Assembly (NCBI GenBank): GCA_017528425.1 | Contig: JAFXOV010000051.1 | Location: 1-48,961 of the forward strand | Length of the DNA: 48,961 nucleotides | DNA from: Elusimicrobiota bacterium | Lineage (GTDB): Bacteria > Elusimicrobiota > Endomicrobiia > Endomicrobiales > Endomicrobiaceae | Direction: 5' to 3' | In this document: positions 2,351-48,945 of the stretch, in pieces | Position numbering within the stretch: position 1 is the first letter of the stretch | Layout of the letters: each line of letters opens with the position of its first letter | The notes under the pieces: generated by a model | What the model was told of the DNA's origin: nothing | Databases searched by the model: none | The model's input: only the letters and a program-made list of their open reading frames with translations | Translations under genes and position numbers: made by a program

Positions 2351-5300
2351 TTATGCGGCGGACAACATACTTCTGACAGCTTTTATCGACATATCAAGAC
2401 CGGCTGTAGTATCTTTAATAATCTTCAAGTTATCAAGCAATACAACATAGTTCTTGAAGTCTTCTATTGTCTTTGGTATATCTTCTTTTTCTATCTTTTC
2501 TATCTTATACTCGTTCTGTTTCAATATTTCTTCTATATTTATATTAACTTTTTCAAGAATAGAATCCAAATATTCTTTAGCTGTCATATCGGAATCGATA
2601 AAGTCTGTTTCTAATAATTCTGTTATATCTATATCTTCCATCATCAATTGAACTGCAATAGTAAGGAATGCTTTCTGATATTTACCATCGGCTACATTAG
2701 CAAATTTTTTCATATCCAAATTAAATCCTTTTTCTTCAAGACCTTTAAATACTTGAGTCCTTGCGGAGTTCATAGCAATACCTCTTATAAAACCTAACAG
2801 TTCTTCATCTCTGTTTTTATCTGCCAAATATTTTAAATAAGCTTTAGAATCGAAACTTAAATTTTTTAATAACTCCGATGAAAACTCTTCTCGGGAATTC
2901 TGTCCATATAAAGAAAGAATCCTTTTTAGTTCTTCTAATTTCTGTTTATCTAGTTTTTGCTTATATAGTTTTTGCTCATCTGTTTTTTCGGAAGCCTTAT
3001 TATCAACAATTTCGATATCCAAATAATTAGCCAATATTTTCACGTCTGCACAAGTATAATCAAATTTACTACTTAATGCAGCATTGTACCCCTTGTTGTA
3101 TTTATGTTCTTTCGAAAACAAATCTCTTAATTTGATCTTTTTATCCGCAAATGTTCTTGCATTATCTATAACAAAACCGACAACATTATTTTGTCTTAAA
3201 AATCTCTCTATATTATTGTCTCTTATTTTTTCAACTATAAATTTACCGATAATGGAATTGGTCATATATGAATCTTCTACAATGGGTAACATTCCGTAAG
3301 TATCAAAAATATTTATACCTGCACTATTGAACTTTCCGTAAGTTGAGTTACTGAATTTTACGGACACCGGCTTTGCAACTCCGGTTTTCAAAACATGTTT
3401 TCTTACTTTTTCCATAACAGGCAACAATTGGCTTATATCCTCATAGTCCGTTTTAGAATCGTCTATTATTAACCCGTCATAATACTTTATAGTCGATATA
3501 TCGTCAATTTTACATGAAACGATAAACTTAAAATCTCGTTCTTGTAATGTTTGTATTTCATAAGGAAACTCTTTTGCTTGTTCAAAAGTAACTATAAATG
3601 TTTTTATGCCTGTTGCTCTGGATTCCTGTTCACATACATTTATAATATTTTTTATAGATTTTCTCGAAGATAAATCAAAAGTTGTCTCTTTATTAGGTAT
3701 TGATACTGCTTCCGTATATGCAATATTTAACCTGTCTGTTATATCTTGTAAGGAACTGTCATTCACATCGGCAAAAGCTATAACATCGTCAAATGTATCA
3801 TCTTTTCTTTCGGAAAAATATTGTTCTGTTATCAAACCTTTTATTTCGTCTTCAGTTATATTTATACCTTCTTTCGAATATACAATGATTTTATTTTCTT
3901 TACTGTCGTATGTAGCTTTTATACCTTTTTGAACATCCAAAAAGCTACCTTCTCTTATATCGTATACATGATCCTTTATAACTTCCATTGTCACAACGGC
4001 AATATCTTTTTCTGCTCTGCCCGATAAAAGTTTTACAAAATCTTCTTCCTGTTGTTTCGAGGTTGCTATCAGCAATTTTTTATTACTAAATATTTTTGTT
4101 AAATCTCTTGTTCCAAACACCATATTTATCAATTTTGTAGCAAATGATAAATAATCTAAATTCTTTGAAATATATGTATAAATATCATTCGTAACACTTG
4201 TTTCAACATGTTCAGAAACGGCATAATTCGCCAACACAAAATTCAATATTTGTTTATATTCTTGTTGATTAAATTTATCTTTATTAAAATCTACCTTTAA
4301 TTCTCCGCTTACATTATTTATAACATCTATAATTCCGTTTATTACACCGTCAAAATTATTTTCAAGCTGTTCATATTCAACATTTTTCATTATATTCATG
4401 ATAAGTAAAACAAGCAACTCACTCTTAGAAAATTCAAAATTCATCATAAATGCATTTGAAAATTTTTCAAAAGTTTCTTTCATTTCTTTTGTTGTCGATA
4501 AAATTTCAGTCTTATATTCTTCTGTCTTTTTGTTACCCTTCAAAAGATTAAAGATATTGGGAGATGTGCTTTCTATAATTTCCATTACTTCTTTTACCAA
4601 TATTGTCCATGTTTGCATTTCTTCTATTTCTTTTTTCATATTTTCTGTTTCTTCTTTTGTTAATGAACCTTTTTCAACTGAACGTTTCATATACAAATCT
4701 AATATTCTTCCAAACATTTGGAGTTGATCCAATCCGGATACAGACAGATTCCTTATTACATCCAATAGTACATCCCAATCAATAGGTTTACCTGCTTTTT
4801 GATGCGCGGCAAACAAATAATCTAAGAAAGCAATCGGCGCGGAATGATCTTCCTGCTTAAATTTATACTCTTCTGCATTTTTATCAAACATACTATATAA
4901 AGAATGAAATTTCCGTCCCATTTTAATATGATCTATTACTCCGTCTGTTTGATGTATTGTATACAAATTTTGGGTTTTCGAATAAGCTTCAAAAGATAAA
5001 TTCATTATTTTCCTTAAAAATATATTCGGTACAATATAAGAAACAAACTCTTCCAACGTATCATCTGTATATCGTGGCTTATAAAACATACGATGTGCCA
5101 ATTCATGAATAACAATAAATAAGTCCACCTCGGCAAAAAGGCCATCATCTCTTGCCATCTTTTTACCGTAAGGATTAATTATTATTGCCCTGTTAATAAT
5201 ATCCGGAACATTTATTTTGTCCGCATGATCTCTAAGCATTAAATATACACCCATCATATATGCTCTTAAATCAAGATTATTCAAAACTTCAAATTCGTTA

Positions 5301-8300
5301 TTTTCTATTTGTTTCTTTAACTTTTTTACTATTGCCTTTTCAGCTTGATTGATACGAGTTCTTTCTTCGGAAGTTAAATCATAACTTAATTCATCCAAAT
5401 ATAACAACGCAAACAATCTGAATTTTAAATCTATGTTAGGTTGCGAAGCTATATTTAATAAAATATGTTTGTTTTCTCTGTTTTGTAATAAATATAAGTA
5501 TTTGGTGTTACCTCTAAAAACAAATTGATATGTTTTGGAAGAAATATCTTCCAACTGATCGTTAAAAAGTTCTATTGCATTTTGCCTTCTTTTTTCCTCT
5601 CTGCCTGTATCACTAAAATCAGGCAATCCTTCCATATGCTCAAACTGATTATAATCATCGGTAAGATTTATAAATTCTTCAGGAACTTGTTTTTGTTCAA
5701 CTTCTATATCAAAATTATATTCAATAACACTCCTAACAAGTTCAGGCAAGTCCTGTCTTAAAATTTGATTTTCGTAAGGATCCGGAAATTCAGACATTGA
5801 AAAGATATTATTATCTTCCAAATCTTGTCCTAATTCCGGGTTGTTTTGTTTGAATTGTTCTATAAATTCTTTACTGTAAAAATCCGACATTAAAAATATC
5901 CATGCCGGGTCATATCCCAACTGTATAAGTTTTGCTCTGTGCTGTTCACCGGCAACTATAAATACAGGTTGACTATTTCTTGGAACATTTAAATATTTAA
6001 TATATCTTGACCTGAAACCTTTTTTTAGATTTTCGTTAATATCTTTATATCTTTCATCGGAATTTAAAGTTTCAATATACTCATCTACCAACGGTCTTGT
6101 TTCGTTTGTTTCTCTTAAGGTTGCTTGAGATATATCGTAAAAAACACCGGCAGAATAAACTTTTGTACTTTGTTTACGATGTCTTTCTAAATAATCTTCT
6201 AACATTATATGCCAAATTGCACTTCTGTTTTCATTTGCGGAACAAATCATAACCGCAGCGAACTTAGTATTATCAAAATGAACACCTTCTATAAATTTTT
6301 TCATATTCGCATTTCTTTGTTCCGTTTCCAACTTGTTTTTATTAATTAAATCATTCTTGGTTATGATATCACACAAATAATCCGCCATATCGTTTAAAAG
6401 TGTTCCATTTTCATTTAACGCTTTAATCAAAATATTATCTTGTCCTGCACCTTTTTTCTGTTTGCTTACTTCAACATAATGACTTAACATACCTAAAATA
6501 TGTTGTTTTAAATCTTCGCCTTCTTTAGGGAAAAGATTGTAATTGAAATATCCGTTCTGCAACGCGTATGCTATATTTACAAATTCTATAGAAGATGTAT
6601 TCGGTATGCAATTTACATATTTAATGGAATCAAAGATTACAGATGCCAACAAATCTATTATCTCCAATTCTTCAGGTGAAAATTGTGATTCCAAAAATTT
6701 TTCTGCTTCTTTTTGAGCAAAAACTCTGTCGCCGGGATACATGTTATTCTTATATTCTATGGTTTCCTCTTGATTTTTATTGACTTTCGAAGTATCGATT
6801 AGTGCTATATCCAAAAACTTCTCCATTAAAGAAGAAAATCCCTGCCCCTGTGTTTTAACTGCCGTTATTGCAAAGTATTCTTTTTTATCAAATACAATTT
6901 CTCTGTTTTCTTCCGGAGTTACTCTTATAAGTCCTTCTCTTTCCAAATCTTGTATTATTTGTAAACCTCTGTGATTACCGGTTAACGTTGCTGCCGCAGA
7001 CAAATACAATCTTTTCAAACTTTTCAATCTGTTTCGTTCATCTTTGCTTGTTTGTTTTGCGTTGATAACCGTAAAACCGTCTCTGATAAATTTAATATAT
7101 ATAGGTTCTGATGTATCTGACAAACTCCCATGAACAAAAGCATTTTTCATAAACTCTTTAAGGATATATGCCATACTTCTTCTGTTTTTTATTTGCGGCA
7201 AGCAATTGTTATCTTCCAGCAATTCCTGTAAATCTAAAAATTTACTTTGAATATCGAAATATAAAGCATACAACTGTTCATCCGTCAAAGAATTTATATC
7301 ATATGTATGCGAGAAAGGATATATAACAATCAAACTGTTGTTTGCTATGGCTCGTTCAAGTTTTTCCAAAACTTTGTCCGGGGATTCATCAAGATAAATT
7401 GTTTCCGTAACTTCAGCATTTACAAGTTTTTCCACATCTGCTTGTTGTTGTCTGTCAATTGCGAGTATTTGTATAGGATATAAAGAAGAAACTATTTGAG
7501 AAATCTCTCTGTTTTTTACATACGACACATATGTTTCCGATTCCACGCTTTTTGCAACTATTGTGTTATCGGAAACCTCTATTTTTACACCGGTAAGTTT
7601 TTCTATATCTTCTAAAGTTTTATATTCGGATTGCGTTTTCGAAAAAGCATCGTCACCAACAGAACTTAAATAAACAATCCTTTTCTTATTCGGAAAACTT
7701 GTTTCAATGTAATCTTGTCTGATTTTATCTTCTTCCGTTATGCTGTCCAATGCAACTCTTACAGAATATATTTTTTCATCTTTGTTTATTATTAAAGTTA
7801 CAATTTCTCTTCCGTCATAATCTACTCTTATTTCGGTTCTTTCCGCCAAAAGAGCTTTGTTTAAAAGATCTTTAAATCCTCTTCTGTCATAATAACGATA
7901 CCCGGATATATATTCCAATAGTCTTATAAAACTATCTTGTTTTTTAATACTGAAAAGTTTTTCATATGTATCCTTATCTAAATTTGAAATTCTTTCTTGG
8001 CCGGTTGAAGATATAGTTTTTAAAGTTTTTACCATATATACAAAGTCCCGGTTATTCTCATCAATAGGAATATCAAGAGCTTTGCTTCTAAAAAGAATCA
8101 TCCCCAAACCAAATTCCGAACTTAATTTTATATCAAAACTTCTATCACCATAAGCAATATATTTAATAGTACCGACGGAGTTATTTTTTATGGCTAAATC
8201 AAAAAAATCTCTAATCTGTTCATCATTTTCATTGTTGGTAACAAAAACAGATAATATTATCAAACCATCTTTTCCGGAAAAAACATTTCTATAATCTTTA

Positions 8301-36892: not shown

Positions 36893-36932
36893 TTTCTTCC
36901 CTCTTATATTTCCAAAATTTATATACAAAAAC

Positions 36933-36960
36933 AAAAAAACTTCTCACGAGAATGAGAAGC
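36933..36960 (-). terminator. attenuator hairpin of the L10 leader
   Basis: Leftward, CTTCTCA pairs with TGAGAAG (7 bp) around a 6-base loop, followed by seven U (36933-36939), 40 bases before the rplJ start. Its position between leader and first gene is that of an attenuator. Confidence 0.75.
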
Positions 36961-37070
36961 AAATAAAAAACTATTACACTCAGTCTCGGCAAGGTAAAAC
37001 AAATATTAAACCATTTACGGTCCTTGCTGTCTTAAACCTTTATAAAAAAAATAAACTGCTTAAAGAACTG
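36961..37070 (-). ncRNA. ribosomal protein L10 leader (autoregulatory mRNA element)
   Basis: Just 5' of rplJ, the leftward transcript contains TTTAAGACAGCAAGG and, 37 bases on, CCTTGCCGAGACTGAG. CAAGG and CCTTG can pair. The TAAGACAGC and GCCGAGAC elements match what I remember of the L10 leader family, which folds into a kink-turn structure bound by the L10(L12)4 complex. The boundaries are estimated from the promoter and the attenuator. A covariance-model search with the L10_leader family would confirm it. Confidence 0.7.
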
Positions 37071-39190: not shown

Positions 39191-40165
39191 TTATAATTTT
39201 TTTTCAGGAAGTATAAATTCTTCACCGAATTTATAATCCCAATCTTTATTAAAAGCATTTAATCCGTTTCCATGTGAAAAAGTAAGTTCACCTATATAAA
39301 GATTCTTATTTATATCTTCATACATATCCACTCTAATTTGTGGAAAAGGCTTTGAAAGTTTTTCTGCAAGTTCTATCATTACATTATAATCAATTCCTAA
39401 TTTATAATCTTTATCTGAAGGATGATCATCTTTTATATCCAATAAGTTAAGTTTGGAATCGTAGTAATTACAATATCTGTTACCGGTTTTGGTTGTCGTT
39501 CTAACAAAGAAAACTTTAAACTTTCCTTGAAAACAAAAAACACTATAGTCTGCTGCTACAATATTTTCTTTCTTATTACAACAGTCAACAAACTGTTCAC
39601 AAATAATTTTAGGTTTTATATCCTTATATTGCCATTCGAAATAATTGTAATAATGATTGCTATGAGGATCCATCCATTTCTTCAACTTCCGTTTAATTTC
39701 TTCAATATTTAGTTTTGATTTATCTTCACATATTATATTTTGTTTACAACCCCAATTTACTTTAAGAGCAAACCTATTAGGTAATTTATTAAAATCTATT
39801 TCCTCAACGGAGTTATAAACACCTAAACAGGGAACCAAATATTTCTCGCCGACAACGTCTTTTATATATTCTCTTGCTTCAACCTTATCTGCACATTTTG
39901 TCATTAATGGGTCGTGATAATAAAATTTTTGCCACTGAATTTTCTCATTAAATGTCTTGGGATTATCCAAATTTAAAGGATAACCAAGTGTTGACAGAAA
40001 CTGGATTTCCAAAATATAACGAATTTGTTCTTGTGTTAATCCTTTAAATCTTTGTGCATACAATTTTTTATACTTACAAGGCGCCTTATAACTTAGTACT
40101 TTTTTATTAAAGAAATACAATTGCCTTTGTCCGGTAGGCTTTTTAATAAACTTTAGTATTGACAT
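39191..40165 (-). CDS. TupA-like ATP-grasp protein, copy 1
   Basis: The 324-residue protein belongs to the TupA-like ATP-grasp family (named for a teichuronopeptide synthesis gene of Bacillus halodurans), found in cell-surface polysaccharide loci and thought to ligate amino acids or similar groups to sugars. Landmarks are NPKTFNEKIQWQKFYY, KCADKVEAREYIKD, the ATP-binding strand RFALKVNWGCKQNI, FEWQYKDIKPKIICEQF, and the metal/ATP acidic pair in RVDMYED and ELTFSHGNG. The paralogues at 40947 and 45297 align end to end. The ATG follows a terminator U run with no visible ribosome site. luxS and mtnN lie downstream at operon spacing. Confidence 0.85.
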   Translation of the reverse strand: MSILKFIKKPTGQRQLYFFNKKVLSYKAPCKYKKLYAQRFKGLTQEQIRYILEIQFLSTLGYPLNLDNPKTFNEKIQWQKFYYHDPLMTKCADKVEAREYIKDVVGEKYLVPCLGVYNSVEEIDFNKLPNRFALKVNWGCKQNIICEDKSKLNIEEIKRKLKKWMDPHSNHYYNYFEWQYKDIKPKIICEQFVDCCNKKENIVAADYSVFCFQGKFKVFFVRTTTKTGNRYCNYYDSKLNLLDIKDDHPSDKDYKLGIDYNVMIELAEKLSKPFPQIRVDMYEDINKNLYIGELTFSHGNGLNAFNKDWDYKFGEEFILPEKKL

Positions 40166-40227: not shown

Positions 40228-40872
40228 TTATTGTCTGTTCTTTTCTACCAATTCTTTGTTTGCGGTAATTTTCAATTCAACTCTTCTGTTCTTTGCTTTT
40301 CCTTCATCTGTATCGTTTGAAGCTATAGGTTGGTTAGGGCCATATCCAACATATGTTAAACCATATGTTTGTAATCCGTTAGCCAATATATAATCATATA
40401 CAGCTTTTGCTCTTTTTTCTGACAAGGTTTGGTTGAAAGCTTGTGTTCCGGTTGAATCTGTGTGACCTTGAACCTGAATTATGTTTTCAGGATATTTTTT
40501 CAAAACTGTGTTCAAATCGGTAAGAGTTTGTTTTGCTGCCGCTGACAATTCTGCACTACCTGTTGTGAACAAAATATCGTTTTTCAATGTTACTTCAATT
40601 CCGTTTTCGGTTTTCTTAACATCTGCGATTTTTGCCAACTCTTTTGCTTGTTTGTCATAGTAGTTACCAATTAAACCACCTGCTGCTGCTCCTGCCAATG
40701 CTCCGTAAATAGCACCTTCCGTAGAATTGCCGCCGGTATTATTTGCAATTATTGCACCTGCTGCTGCTCCCAAAGCTGCACCTGCTCCTGCACCGATAGC
40801 AGTTTTTTTACCCGGAGTTGTACATGCACTAACCAATACTGCACAAAATAACAACGCTAATACTTTTTTCAT
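40228..40872 (-). CDS. OmpA-family outer-membrane lipoprotein with glycine-zipper region
   Basis: The 214-residue protein starts with a lipoprotein signal peptide MKKVLALLFCAVLVSAC (lipobox LVSAC, lipidated Cys17; Thr at +2 fits outer-membrane sorting). A Gly/Ala-rich glycine-zipper segment follows (about residues 26-75, repeated AIGAGAGAALGAAAGAI pattern). The C-terminal OmpA/MotB peptidoglycan-binding domain has VQGHTDSTGTQAFNQTLSEK, RAKAVYDYI and KNRRVELKI, with the Asp and Arg that bind diaminopimelate. It probably ties the outer membrane to the peptidoglycan. The ribosome site AAGGAGAGGA is strong. The gene has its own promoter and terminator, so it is monocistronic. Confidence 0.93.
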   Translation of the reverse strand: MKKVLALLFCAVLVSACTTPGKKTAIGAGAGAALGAAAGAIIANNTGGNSTEGAIYGALAGAAAGGLIGNYYDKQAKELAKIADVKKTENGIEVTLKNDILFTTGSAELSAAAKQTLTDLNTVLKKYPENIIQVQGHTDSTGTQAFNQTLSEKRAKAVYDYILANGLQTYGLTYVGYGPNQPIASNDTDEGKAKNRRVELKITANKELVEKNRQ

Positions 40873-40946: not shown

Positions 40947-41912
40947 TTAAACTTTCGGAAGATCTAAATATTCACCGAATTTATAATCATATTCTTCAGG
41001 TTCAATAGGTTTTGTTCCGTTCCAATTGGTAAAAGTTAATTCACCTATATAAATATTTTTTTCACTATCTTCAAACATATCAACTCTTACATGAGGAAAC
41101 GGTTTTGCCAATTTTTCGGCAAGTTCTACCATTTTTTTATAATTTGCTGTTTTAGGAACATAATTTGGATTATTCGGTAAACTTTGTTTTACAGGCATAT
41201 AATTCAAGTCAGCATCATAAAAGTTTATAAAGCGTCCATCAGCTTTTGTCAAAACAACAGAAAAGATTTTAAATTTACCATTGAAACAAAAAAATCTGTA
41301 ATCCGTTATAAATCCGTCATTTATTAAATCAAGATATTTTTCGCAAATAATTTTCGGTTTAATATCCTTATACTGCCATTCAAAAAAATTATAATAATAA
41401 TTTTGTTTAGGGGTTAACCAAGTTGCAAGTTTTTTCTTTGCTTGTTTTATATTAAATTTCGATTTATCTTTACATCCCACATTTTGTTTAGACCCCCAAT
41501 TGACCTTCAAAATAAATTGGTTAGGCAACTTATTAAAATCAATTTCTTCAACACTATTATAAACTCCATAACTAGGCACCAAATATTGTTCCCCTGCAAC
41601 ATCTTTTATATAACCTCTTGCTTCTACTTTGTCTGCACATTTTATTAATAAATCGTTACGATAATATAATTTAAGCCATTGCAGTTTCTCATTGTAAGTT
41701 AAAGGATTGGACAAGTTCAACTTTTTCCCCATTTTAACTTCGAATTGAATTTCCAAAATATATTTTATCTCTTCCGGAGTTAAATTATCCTCAAATCTCC
41801 TTTCGTACAATTTCCTATATTTACAGGGAACCTTATAACTTAATATTTTTTTGTTAAAAAAATACAGTTTTCTGTGTCCGTCAGGCATTTTCATAAAATT
41901 AAATATTTTCAT
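40947..41912 (-). CDS. TupA-like ATP-grasp protein, copy 2
   Basis: At 321 residues, it is homologous along its whole length to copies 1 and 3. It opens like copy 3 (DGHRKLYFFNKKILSYKVPC) and has NPLTYNEKLQWLKLYY, KCADKVEARGYIKD, QFILKVNWGSKQNVGC, FEWQYKDIKPKIICEKY, RVDMFED and ELTFTNWNG. The ribosome site AGGTAGGA lies just upstream, directly after the terminator of the small repeat-peptide gene, so this gene sits first downstream of that peptide. The role (amino-acyl or peptide ligation to surface glycan) is inferred from the family. No substrate can be read from the sequence. Confidence 0.84.
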   Translation of the reverse strand: MKIFNFMKMPDGHRKLYFFNKKILSYKVPCKYRKLYERRFEDNLTPEEIKYILEIQFEVKMGKKLNLSNPLTYNEKLQWLKLYYRNDLLIKCADKVEARGYIKDVAGEQYLVPSYGVYNSVEEIDFNKLPNQFILKVNWGSKQNVGCKDKSKFNIKQAKKKLATWLTPKQNYYYNFFEWQYKDIKPKIICEKYLDLINDGFITDYRFFCFNGKFKIFSVVLTKADGRFINFYDADLNYMPVKQSLPNNPNYVPKTANYKKMVELAEKLAKPFPHVRVDMFEDSEKNIYIGELTFTNWNGTKPIEPEEYDYKFGEYLDLPKV

Positions 41913-41923
41913 ATTTCCTACCT

Positions 41924-41956
41924 AAAAAGAACATCCCTCGGTAAAAACCGAGGGAT
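41924..41956 (-). terminator. terminator of the repeat-peptide gene
   Basis: Leftward, ATCCCTCGGT pairs perfectly with ACCGAGGGAT (arms 41947-41956 and 41933-41942) around loop TTTT, followed after GT by a U-rich tail (TCTTTTT). It lies 24 bases past the peptide stop codon and just before the ribosome site of the TupA-like copy 2. Confidence 0.88.
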
Positions 41957-41980
41957 ACTTTATTTATAAAATATTAAACA

Positions 41981-42133
41981 CTATTTCGGTACTGGTCCGT
42001 CTCCAATTTTACTCACTGCTGCTGGGCCATCACCAATTTTACTCAATACCGTCGGTCCATCACCAAATTTCAAAGCCACTACTGGTCCATCACCAAATTT
42101 CAAAGCCTCTACTGGTCCGTCACCTAATTTCAT
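41981..42133 (-). CDS. 50-residue tandem-repeat peptide, K-[L/F/I]-G-D-G-P repeats
   Basis: I do not recognise this family. From ATG 42131-42133 to TAG 41981-41983 the frame encodes Met followed by five head-to-tail 10-residue units (the last has nine) of consensus K-[L/F/I]-G-D-G-P-[V/T/A]-x-[A/L/V]-[L/S]. It has no leader, signal peptide or cysteine. Every unit keeps Lys, Gly-Asp-Gly and Pro, while positions 7-10 vary. Evidence that it is a gene: an excellent ribosome site AAGGAGGT (42141-42148) 7 bases before the ATG, a promoter at 42184-42212, and a perfect terminator 24 bases after the stop. Synonymous third-position changes between repeats (GAT/GAC, GGA/GGC, CCA/CCG) argue for selection on the peptide. 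It could be a signalling or bacteriocin-like peptide, a modified-peptide precursor, or a structural repeat. Confidence 0.78.
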   Translation of the reverse strand: MKLGDGPVEALKFGDGPVVALKFGDGPTVLSKIGDGPAAVSKIGDGPVPK

Positions 42134-42183
42134 TTCAACTACCTCCTTAAAAAAAATTAAAGGAACCTTACCTTATATTTCTT

Positions 42184-42212
42184 ATTTTATTATTAAAAAA
42201 GAAAAAAATCAA
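42184..42212 (-). promoter_or_regulatory. promoter of the repeat-peptide gene
   Basis: Leftward, TTGATT (42207-42212), 17 bases, TAAAAT (42184-42189). The expected leader is about 45 bases. In it, UUCCUU (42160-42165) can pair with the AAGGAG of the ribosome site, a possible translational mask. Confidence 0.65.
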
Positions 42213-42251: not shown

Positions 42252-43112
42252 TTAATTCTTTTCAATTTTTATTTGTTTTTTATTTACTACCCAATCAAAA
42301 ACATAATTGTTTATTTCTCCGCCTATCAAAATTATGATGGAAGTAAAATATAACCAAATCATTAATATTGCAAAAGCCGCAATCGAGCCATAAACTTTAT
42401 TATATGAACCGAAATTGTTTATATATATTGAAAACAGCCATGAACCGAGCAGCCAAAAAAAAGTAAAGAATGCAGAGCCGGGGATTACCGTTTTTATTTT
42501 AACTTTTTTTGCGGGTAACACATAATAATTTATTCCCGCCAAAATAAAAATTAAAATAAACGTTACCGGCCATCTTAACAATAAAATAAGTTGAGATACT
42601 TCCAAAGGAATAATGTGAACATATTTTGAAATTAAGTTTAAAATAGTCTGACCGAAAATTATTAGATTAACGCTGAAAAACAAAAATATAACATAAACAA
42701 AAACCATACATATCGATAAAAGTTTTGTATAAATAAAACCTCTTGTTTCTTTAATTTTGTCAGATTGATTCAAACATTTTATAATAACAGATATTGAATT
42801 TGATGCAAGATAAAGTGTTGTTAAAAATCCGATAATCGCAACCAACGAATAACCTTTTAACAAAGTAACTTCTTTTAAAACCGTTTGAATTACAACAATA
42901 ACCTCCGCCGGAGCAAATTGAGAAAGAGTATTTAATGCTTCATTCACAAATGCTGTATTTCCAACTATAGAAAATATTGCCATAAAAGAAAGAAGTAACG
43001 GGAAAACACTTAATGTCAACATGTACGACATTTCCGCCGCAGAGCCGAAAATATCTTCTCTTAAAATAACGGATATAGCTTTTTTTATTGTAATATAAAT
43101 ATTCTTTATCAT
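42252..43112 (-). CDS. YihY/BrkB-family inner-membrane protein
   Basis: The 286-residue protein with about six membrane helices shows the YihY pattern: an N-terminal amphipathic stretch followed by AAEMSYMLTLSVFPLLLSF (family: A..lAYy..lSlfPlLl), a central LYLASNSISVIIKCLN segment, and near the C terminus VYGSIAAFAILMIWLYFTS then IILIGGEINNYVFDW. Once thought to be an RNase BN, the family is now regarded as a membrane protein of uncertain transport or envelope function. It starts 13 bases after the flavoprotein gene ends, so the two form one transcription unit. Confidence 0.9.
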   Translation of the reverse strand: MIKNIYITIKKAISVILREDIFGSAAEMSYMLTLSVFPLLLSFMAIFSIVGNTAFVNEALNTLSQFAPAEVIVVIQTVLKEVTLLKGYSLVAIIGFLTTLYLASNSISVIIKCLNQSDKIKETRGFIYTKLLSICMVFVYVIFLFFSVNLIIFGQTILNLISKYVHIIPLEVSQLILLLRWPVTFILIFILAGINYYVLPAKKVKIKTVIPGSAFFTFFWLLGSWLFSIYINNFGSYNKVYGSIAAFAILMIWLYFTSIIILIGGEINNYVFDWVVNKKQIKIEKN

Positions 43113-45296: not shown

Positions 45297-46262
45297 TTAT
45301 TTCAATTTAGGAAGAATTAAATCGTCACCCAATTTATAATCCCATTCAAAAGGTTCAAAAATATCTGTTCCGTTTCCCGGTGTAAATGTCAGCTCTCCTA
45401 AATAAATATCTTTATTAATATCTTCATAAAAATCTACTCTGCAAAGAGGAAAAGGTTCTGCTAATTTTTCTGCTAATTCTACCATTTTAGGAAAATCTTT
45501 TAAATTAACTTTTTCATCTTCTTTTATTGCTCCGCCGTTTTTTAAATTTAACAAATTAAGATTTTTATCATAGAAATTGCAAAATCTATTTTTCTCGTCT
45601 ATTGCACCGATAACTAACAATCGTTTAAAAACGCCATTACAACAATGAAATTTATAATCTTTCAAATATTTATCACCAACAATATACTTTTCACAAATAA
45701 TTTTGGGTTTTATATCTTTATACTGCCACTCAAAATATCGATAATAATTATTACTTTTGGGATTCATCCATTTTTTTAATTTCTGTTTCGCATCCTCAAT
45801 ATCAAGCTTCAACTTATCTTTTACGATAATATTTTGTTTACATCCCCAATTAACCTTCAAAACAAATCTATTCGGTAATTTATTAAAATCAATTTCATCG
45901 GGGCTATTATAAACACCTAAACACGGAATTAAATACTGTTCACCTACTGTATCTTTTATATAATTTCTAACTTCCACTTTATCCGCACATTTTGTCATTA
46001 GATAATCACGATAATAAAATTTTAACCATTGTATTTTTTCATTAAACGTTTTTGGATTATCAAGATTTAACTTATAGCCCAACATTGTTTCAAATTGAGT
46101 TTCTAAAATATATTTTATTTCTTCTTCGGTTAGATTATTTTCAAATCTTCTTTTATATAATCTTCTATATTTGCACGGAACTTTATAACTTAATACTTTC
46201 CTGTTAAAAAAATATAATTTTCTATGTCCGTCTCTTGTTCTTGTAAAGTCAAATATTTCCAT
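45297..46262 (-). CDS. TupA-like ATP-grasp protein, copy 3
   Basis: The 321-residue paralogue of copies 1 and 2 has NPKTFNEKIQWLKFYY, KCADKVEVRNYIKD, RFVLKVNWGCKQNIIV, FEWQYKDIKPKIICEKY, RVDFYED and ELTFTPGNG. The last is nearest the usual family form, so this copy may be the most canonical. Unlike the other two it is headed by its own promoter with a palindrome between the -35 and -10. It diverges from the glycosyltransferase gene across about 200 bases and is followed by the small secreted protein gene. The surface-glycan ligase role is inferred from the family. Confidence 0.86.
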   Translation of the reverse strand: MEIFDFTRTRDGHRKLYFFNRKVLSYKVPCKYRRLYKRRFENNLTEEEIKYILETQFETMLGYKLNLDNPKTFNEKIQWLKFYYRDYLMTKCADKVEVRNYIKDTVGEQYLIPCLGVYNSPDEIDFNKLPNRFVLKVNWGCKQNIIVKDKLKLDIEDAKQKLKKWMNPKSNNYYRYFEWQYKDIKPKIICEKYIVGDKYLKDYKFHCCNGVFKRLLVIGAIDEKNRFCNFYDKNLNLLNLKNGGAIKEDEKVNLKDFPKMVELAEKLAEPFPLCRVDFYEDINKDIYLGELTFTPGNGTDIFEPFEWDYKLGDDLILPKLK

Positions 46263-48819: not shown

Positions 48820-48829
48820 ATATAAAGAA

Positions 48830-48945
48830 TCTGGCAACGACCTACTCTCCCGGGACCCTGCGGTCCAAGTACCATCGGCCCATATGAGCTTAACTTCCGA
48901 GTTCGGAATGGGATCGGGTGTGACCTCACAGGTATAGTCACCAGA
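48830..48945 (-). rRNA. rrf: 5S ribosomal RNA
   Basis: The leftward transcript of about 116 bases begins TCTGGTGACTATACCTGTG and ends GAGTAGGTCGTTGCCAGA, so the two ends pair as helix I. Internal hallmarks are CACACCCGATCCCATTCCGA, GAACTCGGAAGTTAAGC and GGTACTTGGACCGCAGGGTC. A terminator follows at once. 23S rRNA is expected beyond the right edge, so the window catches the 3' end of an rRNA operon. Confidence 0.96.

Follow-up and report, generated by a model that had tools for sequence, protein, structure and literature searches.

Graspetides are defined by a core nucleophile (Ser, Thr, or Lys) and an acidic partner (Asp or Glu) (PMC13097080), and in the MvdD, PsnB, and MdnC types a small peptide is encoded beside an ATP-grasp ligase; closure of their macrolactone or macrolactam rings releases water. 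TupA-like ATP-grasps of capsule loci perform amide ligation on uronic acid, e.g., the TupA-like C-terminal domain of Cj1438, which converts the C6 carboxylate of glucuronic acid to an amide (PMC11800379). In the ACGX system (TIGR04341/TIGR04340), a short Lys-rich repeat peptide is found upstream of a modifying enzyme. Finally, CtA, a cargo of the PCAT1 exporter of Clostridium thermocellum (PDB 6v9z), is built of ten-residue repeats (K-aromatic-G-x-x-P-aliphatic) and is associated with a double-Gly leader and a C39 exporter (PMC6959990).

A 48,961-nucleotide stretch of an Elusimicrobiota genome (the window; contig JAFXOV010000051.1) contains a locus that shares aspects of each of these systems. 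As in graspetides, a small peptide is encoded beside a ligase of the ATP-grasp superfamily, but this ligase (TupA1) belongs to PF14305 rather than to the MvdD pre-ATP-grasp type, the peptide has no separate leader, and the acidic partner is not conserved. As in the ACGX system, which is present elsewhere in the window genome, a short Lys-rich repeat peptide precedes a putative modifying enzyme, but there is no radical SAM gene, no Cys repeat, no ACGX-type N-terminal region, and no TIGR04341 match. TupA1 shares its Pfam family with the capsule-locus enzymes; the latter act on polysaccharide and lie among glycosyltransferases, whereas TupA1 lies behind a repeat peptide. Like CtA, the peptide has ten-residue repeats.

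The peptide gene and its neighborhood

The open reading frame (ORF) at 41981-42133(-) encodes exactly MKLGDGPVEALKFGDGPVVALKFGDGPTVLSKIGDGPAAVSKIGDGPVPK, a predicted peptide of 4.9 kDa with a pI of 6.0. In the window genome it consists of five units at 10-residue spacing with invariant K-x-G-D-G-P, the final unit being nine residues followed by the stop. Across the six reading frames of the window, K-x-G-D-G-P occurs just five times, always within this ORF, and tandem-repeat detection scored its array far above the window's other arrays. The initial annotation described a complete leftward gene, with promoter, ribosome site, start, stop, and terminator, directly upstream of one of three TupA-like ATP-grasp paralogues, and all of these elements were recovered:

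42252-43112 (-), upstream flank, BrkB/YihY-family membrane protein (PF03631); this flank is conserved in relatives
42184-42212 (-), promoter-like pair TTGATT-17-TAAAAT, aligned and kept in two relatives (G003 and G008)
42142-42148 (-), ribosome-binding site AAGGAGG, 8 nt 5' of the ATG
41981-42133 (-), 50-residue peptide ORF, five K-x-G-D-G-P-x4 units
41930-41959 (-), intrinsic terminator, stem ATCCCTCGG/CCGAGGGAT with a T-rich tail, kept in G003 and G008
40947-41912 (-), tupA1, TupA-like ATP-grasp ligase of 321 residues (PF14305, 158.5 bits against a cut-off of 25, E 2.6e-46)
40228-40872 (-), downstream flank, OmpA/glycine-zipper lipoprotein-like gene, directly after BrkB in three further genomes (G006, G001, and G013)
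39191-40165 (-), tupA2 paralogue, without an adjoining repeat peptide
45297-46262 (-), tupA3 paralogue, without an adjoining repeat peptide

Only 68 nt separate the stop of the peptide ORF from the start of tupA1. Promoter-like matches as a class were no commoner than in shuffled sequence; the pair ahead of the peptide gene is conserved in two relatives. Among the neighbors scanned, no leader, peptidase, or exporter was found beside the peptide gene. Elsewhere in the window, a single open frame of 7657 residues (2351-25324(-)) lies between a biotin/lipoate ligase-family gene and a ribosomal protein S7/S12 region.

The terminator hairpin has 13 pairs and forms alone in both the minimum-energy and centroid structures. 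Immediately ahead of tupA1, conserved control elements (promoter, ribosome site, start, and terminator) surround an ORF body that is poorly conserved and maybe frame-shifted, and this arrangement could belong to a regulatory leader ORF, whose translation would control terminator read-through into tupA1 while the peptide itself is idle. This is improbable: no competing antiterminator is predicted, no Rfam regulatory RNA was found at the locus, tupA is not an amino acid biosynthesis gene, and silent changes preserve K-x-G-[DG], something that would be unnecessary in a leader ORF. Rfam matches at 36923-37033(-) and 48829-48945(-) are ordinary features (a ribosomal protein L10 leader [RF00557], barely above the cut-off, and 5S rRNA, respectively).

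Conservation of the cassette in related genomes

Searches with the peptide (tblastn) against 100 related genomes, GTDB contigs, phages, and plasmids gave no significant match; synteny, unlike tblastn, located counterparts in relatives. The promoter-peptide-terminator-tupA1 cassette, with the same two flanking genes, is present in two genomes of the same genus, G003 and G008. Promoter (TTGACT-17-TAAAAT in G003 and TTGATT-18-TAGAAT in G008), ribosome site (GGAGG in both), start ATGAAATTAGG, and terminator (66-69 of about 80 positions identical) align across the three genomes, around a gap-rich ORF body. In G006, G001, and G013, members of the same family, the peptide and tupA1 are both absent at the locus and BrkB runs directly into the OmpA gene. 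The peptide and tupA1 therefore behave as one cassette across six informative genomes, three with it and three without. A short ORF beside a co-inherited tailoring-type enzyme gene is a feature of RiPP precursors. Carriers are restricted to three species, one of them with a broken frame.

The frame is intact in one of the two relatives and shifted in the other; the initial annotation had listed frameshifts in close relatives as a sign against the gene. The G003 orthologue (MKLGGGDIKFGGPMIEKCGGSELLKNGGPSVEAMKNGGATPK; L152:7345-7473, between BrkB and TupA) is complete but diverged, and the invariance of Lys, Gly-Asp-Gly, and Pro reported initially is therefore a property of the window genome only: all five G003 units have Gly for Asp and two of five keep Pro, while Lys and the first Gly persist. 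No distinct leader is apparent; between the two species only the opening MKLG[DG]G stays constant. In G008 the locus (L153 from 2628) contains a 17-residue ORF, MKLGGGGIGDDGGGEDW, with AAEKIGDGELD in another frame; this is either a homologue of the KIGDG units that has undergone a frameshift or a fault in the assembly.

The silent bias expected of selected repeats was present. Silent codon variation exceeded chance in the window genome (column-permutation p 0.0046; five units by eight codons) and in G003 (p 0.0003, with unit boundaries set by the motif, which favors this result); a version with four units by ten codons gave p 0.055. One antisense frame has an equal number of silent codons (three) but none of the conserved start signals. 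The permutation result is moderate evidence for a selected peptide frame. TupA1 is under purifying selection among the three cassette species (dN/dS 0.125-0.151), so the enzyme is functional in all of them, G008 included.

The G008 frameshift, the lack of peptide relatives outside the genus, a promoter and terminator that would suit a small RNA, and the three silent codons of the antisense frame are also consistent with a decaying or noncoding locus, such as a small RNA that happens to contain an open frame, or a precursor gene that is being lost. The strong ribosome site, the intact K-x-G-[DG] units in two species, and the permutation test make this a rather improbable account, and 41981-42133(-) is supported as a short gene of its own.

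The TupA1 clade and a possible role in lysine modification

TupA1 has the invariant ATP-grasp K, D, and GELT columns and matches PF14305 only, not a graspetide-synthetase family. Its structure model has an ATP-grasp fold (pLDDT 85), and a fold search retrieved LysX/ArgX, the graspetide ligase PsnB, DdlB, and RimK, a similarity at the superfamily level only (TM about 0.4). The nearest solved folds are peptide- or protein-modifying ATP-grasps (LysX/ArgX, PsnB, and RimK), again only at that level. In the tree, TupA1, TupA2, TupA3, and the ACGX-linked TupAs of the window genome (G000:C58) and G006 (G006:C35) form one genus-specific clade (100/99), apart from the phylum's other TupAs. From reading of adjacent frames, the wider-phylum TupAs are surrounded by glycosyltransferases and by genes resembling flippases or polymerases, and no convincing short ORF was found beside other TupAs. 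Within the clade, one branch goes with an ACGX peptide-modification cluster and another with the repeat peptide; for TupA2 and TupA3 no associated peptide was found.

At G000:C58 and G006:C35, TupA directly follows a TIGR04340 radical SAM/SPASM enzyme (ACGX family, E 3.9e-173) and a Lys-rich Cys-repeat peptide, so that the ACGX system of these two genomes carries a TupA from the clade of TupA1. At C58 the stop codon of the radical SAM gene and the start codon of the TupA gene share the sequence ATGA, i.e., translational coupling. This cluster (L172, G000:C58:102000-112000, 3088-6351(-)) comprises a Cys/Lys repeat peptide, TIGR04340 radical SAM, TupA, and Caps_synth and is of the ACGX type with additions. 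TIGR04340 occurs in 3 of 248 phylum genomes, with TupA adjoining in two of the three; TupA is not needed for an ACGX cluster, since G003 has the ACGX pair without it. The window locus itself is not an ACGX cluster: the sole TIGR04340-family radical SAM of the window genome is on C58, and the peptide has no NCBIfam match. What the peptides beside the TupA clade have in common is recurring Lys and Gly rather than acids. This is not diagnostic, because the ACGX peptide without TupA is also Lys rich.

The initial annotation proposed a precursor modified by ligation and, more specifically, a graspetide-type cross-link between Lys and Asp. Ligation in general fits the co-inheritance with tupA1 and the sister TupA in a recognized peptide-modification cluster; the Lys-Asp chemistry is not supported. 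Lys and Asp occur once per unit in the window genome, and the ATP-grasp fold is common to TupA1 and PsnB, but several lines of evidence make cross-linking of Lys to Asp within each unit by TupA1 very unlikely. First, Lys is kept and Asp is replaced by Gly in all five G003 units, though the TupA1 of G003 shares 79% identity and evolves under purifying selection. Second, the ACGX peptide that accompanies the sister TupA in G006 lacks acidic residues throughout its repeat part. Third, no MvdD-type graspetide synthetase was found in the window genome (no TIGR04184 match at E 1e-5), and a single BLASTP comparison of TupA1 with an MvdD-like enzyme of the genus gave no convincing similarity (E 0.008 over 78 residues). 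By the features tested (an enzyme that is not MvdD-like and acidic partners missing from the G003 units and the TupA-linked G006 repeat part), a graspetide identity was rejected. A genuine-looking graspetide precursor does occur in G006 and is quite unlike the 50-residue peptide: the graspetide-like cluster L210 (G006:C54, 1498-2771(-)) has an MvdD-like ATP-grasp and a 115-residue precursor with TRTVTxVCKEDSDSD repeats. A second MvdD-like ATP-grasp (L211, G006:C12) adjoins a membrane-metalloprotease-like gene.

Lys as the amine, with TupA1 activating a separate carboxylate, is the simplest joint reading, because the peptides share Lys and Gly rather than acids and the Cj1438 domain performs amide chemistry. 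The explanation tentatively favored here is that the ORF encodes a fast-evolving, genus-restricted precursor and that TupA1 attaches a carboxylic acid (a sugar acid, perhaps) to its Lys residues. Placing a terminator after the precursor gene and before the enzyme gene is a common means of obtaining more precursor than enzyme. Starting from the cassette, we infer the following. (i) The ORF would be translated and would open a cassette of two genes (in the order promoter, peptide, terminator, and tupA1). (ii) Most transcripts would end at the terminator and a minority would read through into tupA1, so that the peptide would be made in excess over the enzyme. (iii) TupA1 would phosphorylate a carboxylate (of a uronic-acid sugar or an amino acid) and join it as an amide to Lys side chains, one Lys per unit. 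Any export of the product would be a further conditional step.

Several observations count against the proposed Lys modification: the G008 peptide frame is shifted (possibly an assembly error) although selection still acts on TupA1 there; no repeat peptide adjoins tupA2 or tupA3, TupAs elsewhere in the phylum lie in polysaccharide loci, and G003 has ACGX without TupA; and no leader, peptidase, or exporter was found beside the peptide, in a cassette of three species only. It is more doubtful still that a branch of TupA, a family whose only known role to date is amidation of polysaccharide, now acts on ribosomally made Lys-repeat peptides and places sugar acids or amino acids onto Lys side chains, which would generate either conjugates of peptide and glycan or a modified-peptide class of a new kind. 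If TupA1 does act on the peptide, a large capsule-annotated enzyme family gains a peptide substrate, and the blindness of gene finders to ORFs of 17 to 50 residues would hide TupA substrates. Even if it does not, this is a clear case of a repeat peptide that is confined to one genus and combines conserved control elements with a rapidly changing body.

Relatives and look-alikes of the repeat peptide

No family for the peptide was found in Pfam, NCBIfam, or PHROGs, the phrog_29797 match (E 0.023 over 18 residues) not being meaningful, and the literature searched contained no paper on the repeat, on TupA-like RiPPs, or on ACGX. The nearest PDB sequence match was CtA, whose K-Y-G-V-x-P repeats (VIKYGVGPIVGIKYGVEP) are very like ALKFGDGPVVALKFGDGP, but with an E of only 0.57 the similarity is not statistically significant. 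This likeness, the position of phylum TupAs elsewhere among glycosyltransferases, and the GT2 and DegT aminotransferase genes adjoining tupA3 would suit a small peptide that works unmodified (bacteriocin-like, signaling, or structural) and is a mere neighbor of tupA1, the latter serving cell envelope polysaccharide. Such a role is somewhat unlikely, as the peptide and tupA1 are gained or lost together and as the double-Gly leader and C39-peptidase exporter of CtA were found neither in the peptide nor among the neighbors scanned.

Short ORFs with three K-x-G-[GD] units, sought in the 96 genomes of the class, were found only in the window genome and, beside TupA, in G003. Additional triple matches across the phylum were rejected, the DNA reading as GC-rich, KPGDG-type low-complexity repeats. 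A scan of GTDB contigs for GDGP pairs, with Lys left out of the pattern, gave only unrelated GC-rich or low-complexity frames among the matches listed. The strict K-x-G-D-G-P pair had no match in IMG/VR, and K-[FY]-G-x-x-P pairs gave no relative in the phylum or IMG/VR, the L247 match lying within no plausible gene. Two Lachnospiraceae contigs (L049 and L060) contain intergenic-looking tandem repeats with GDGPVSQK in one frame, which are motif look-alikes and probably not genes. A different kind of repeat protein is represented by L013 (G039:C33), from another genus of the family, whose long open frame contains many GKGDG and GDGPIVPPAVQDD repeats.
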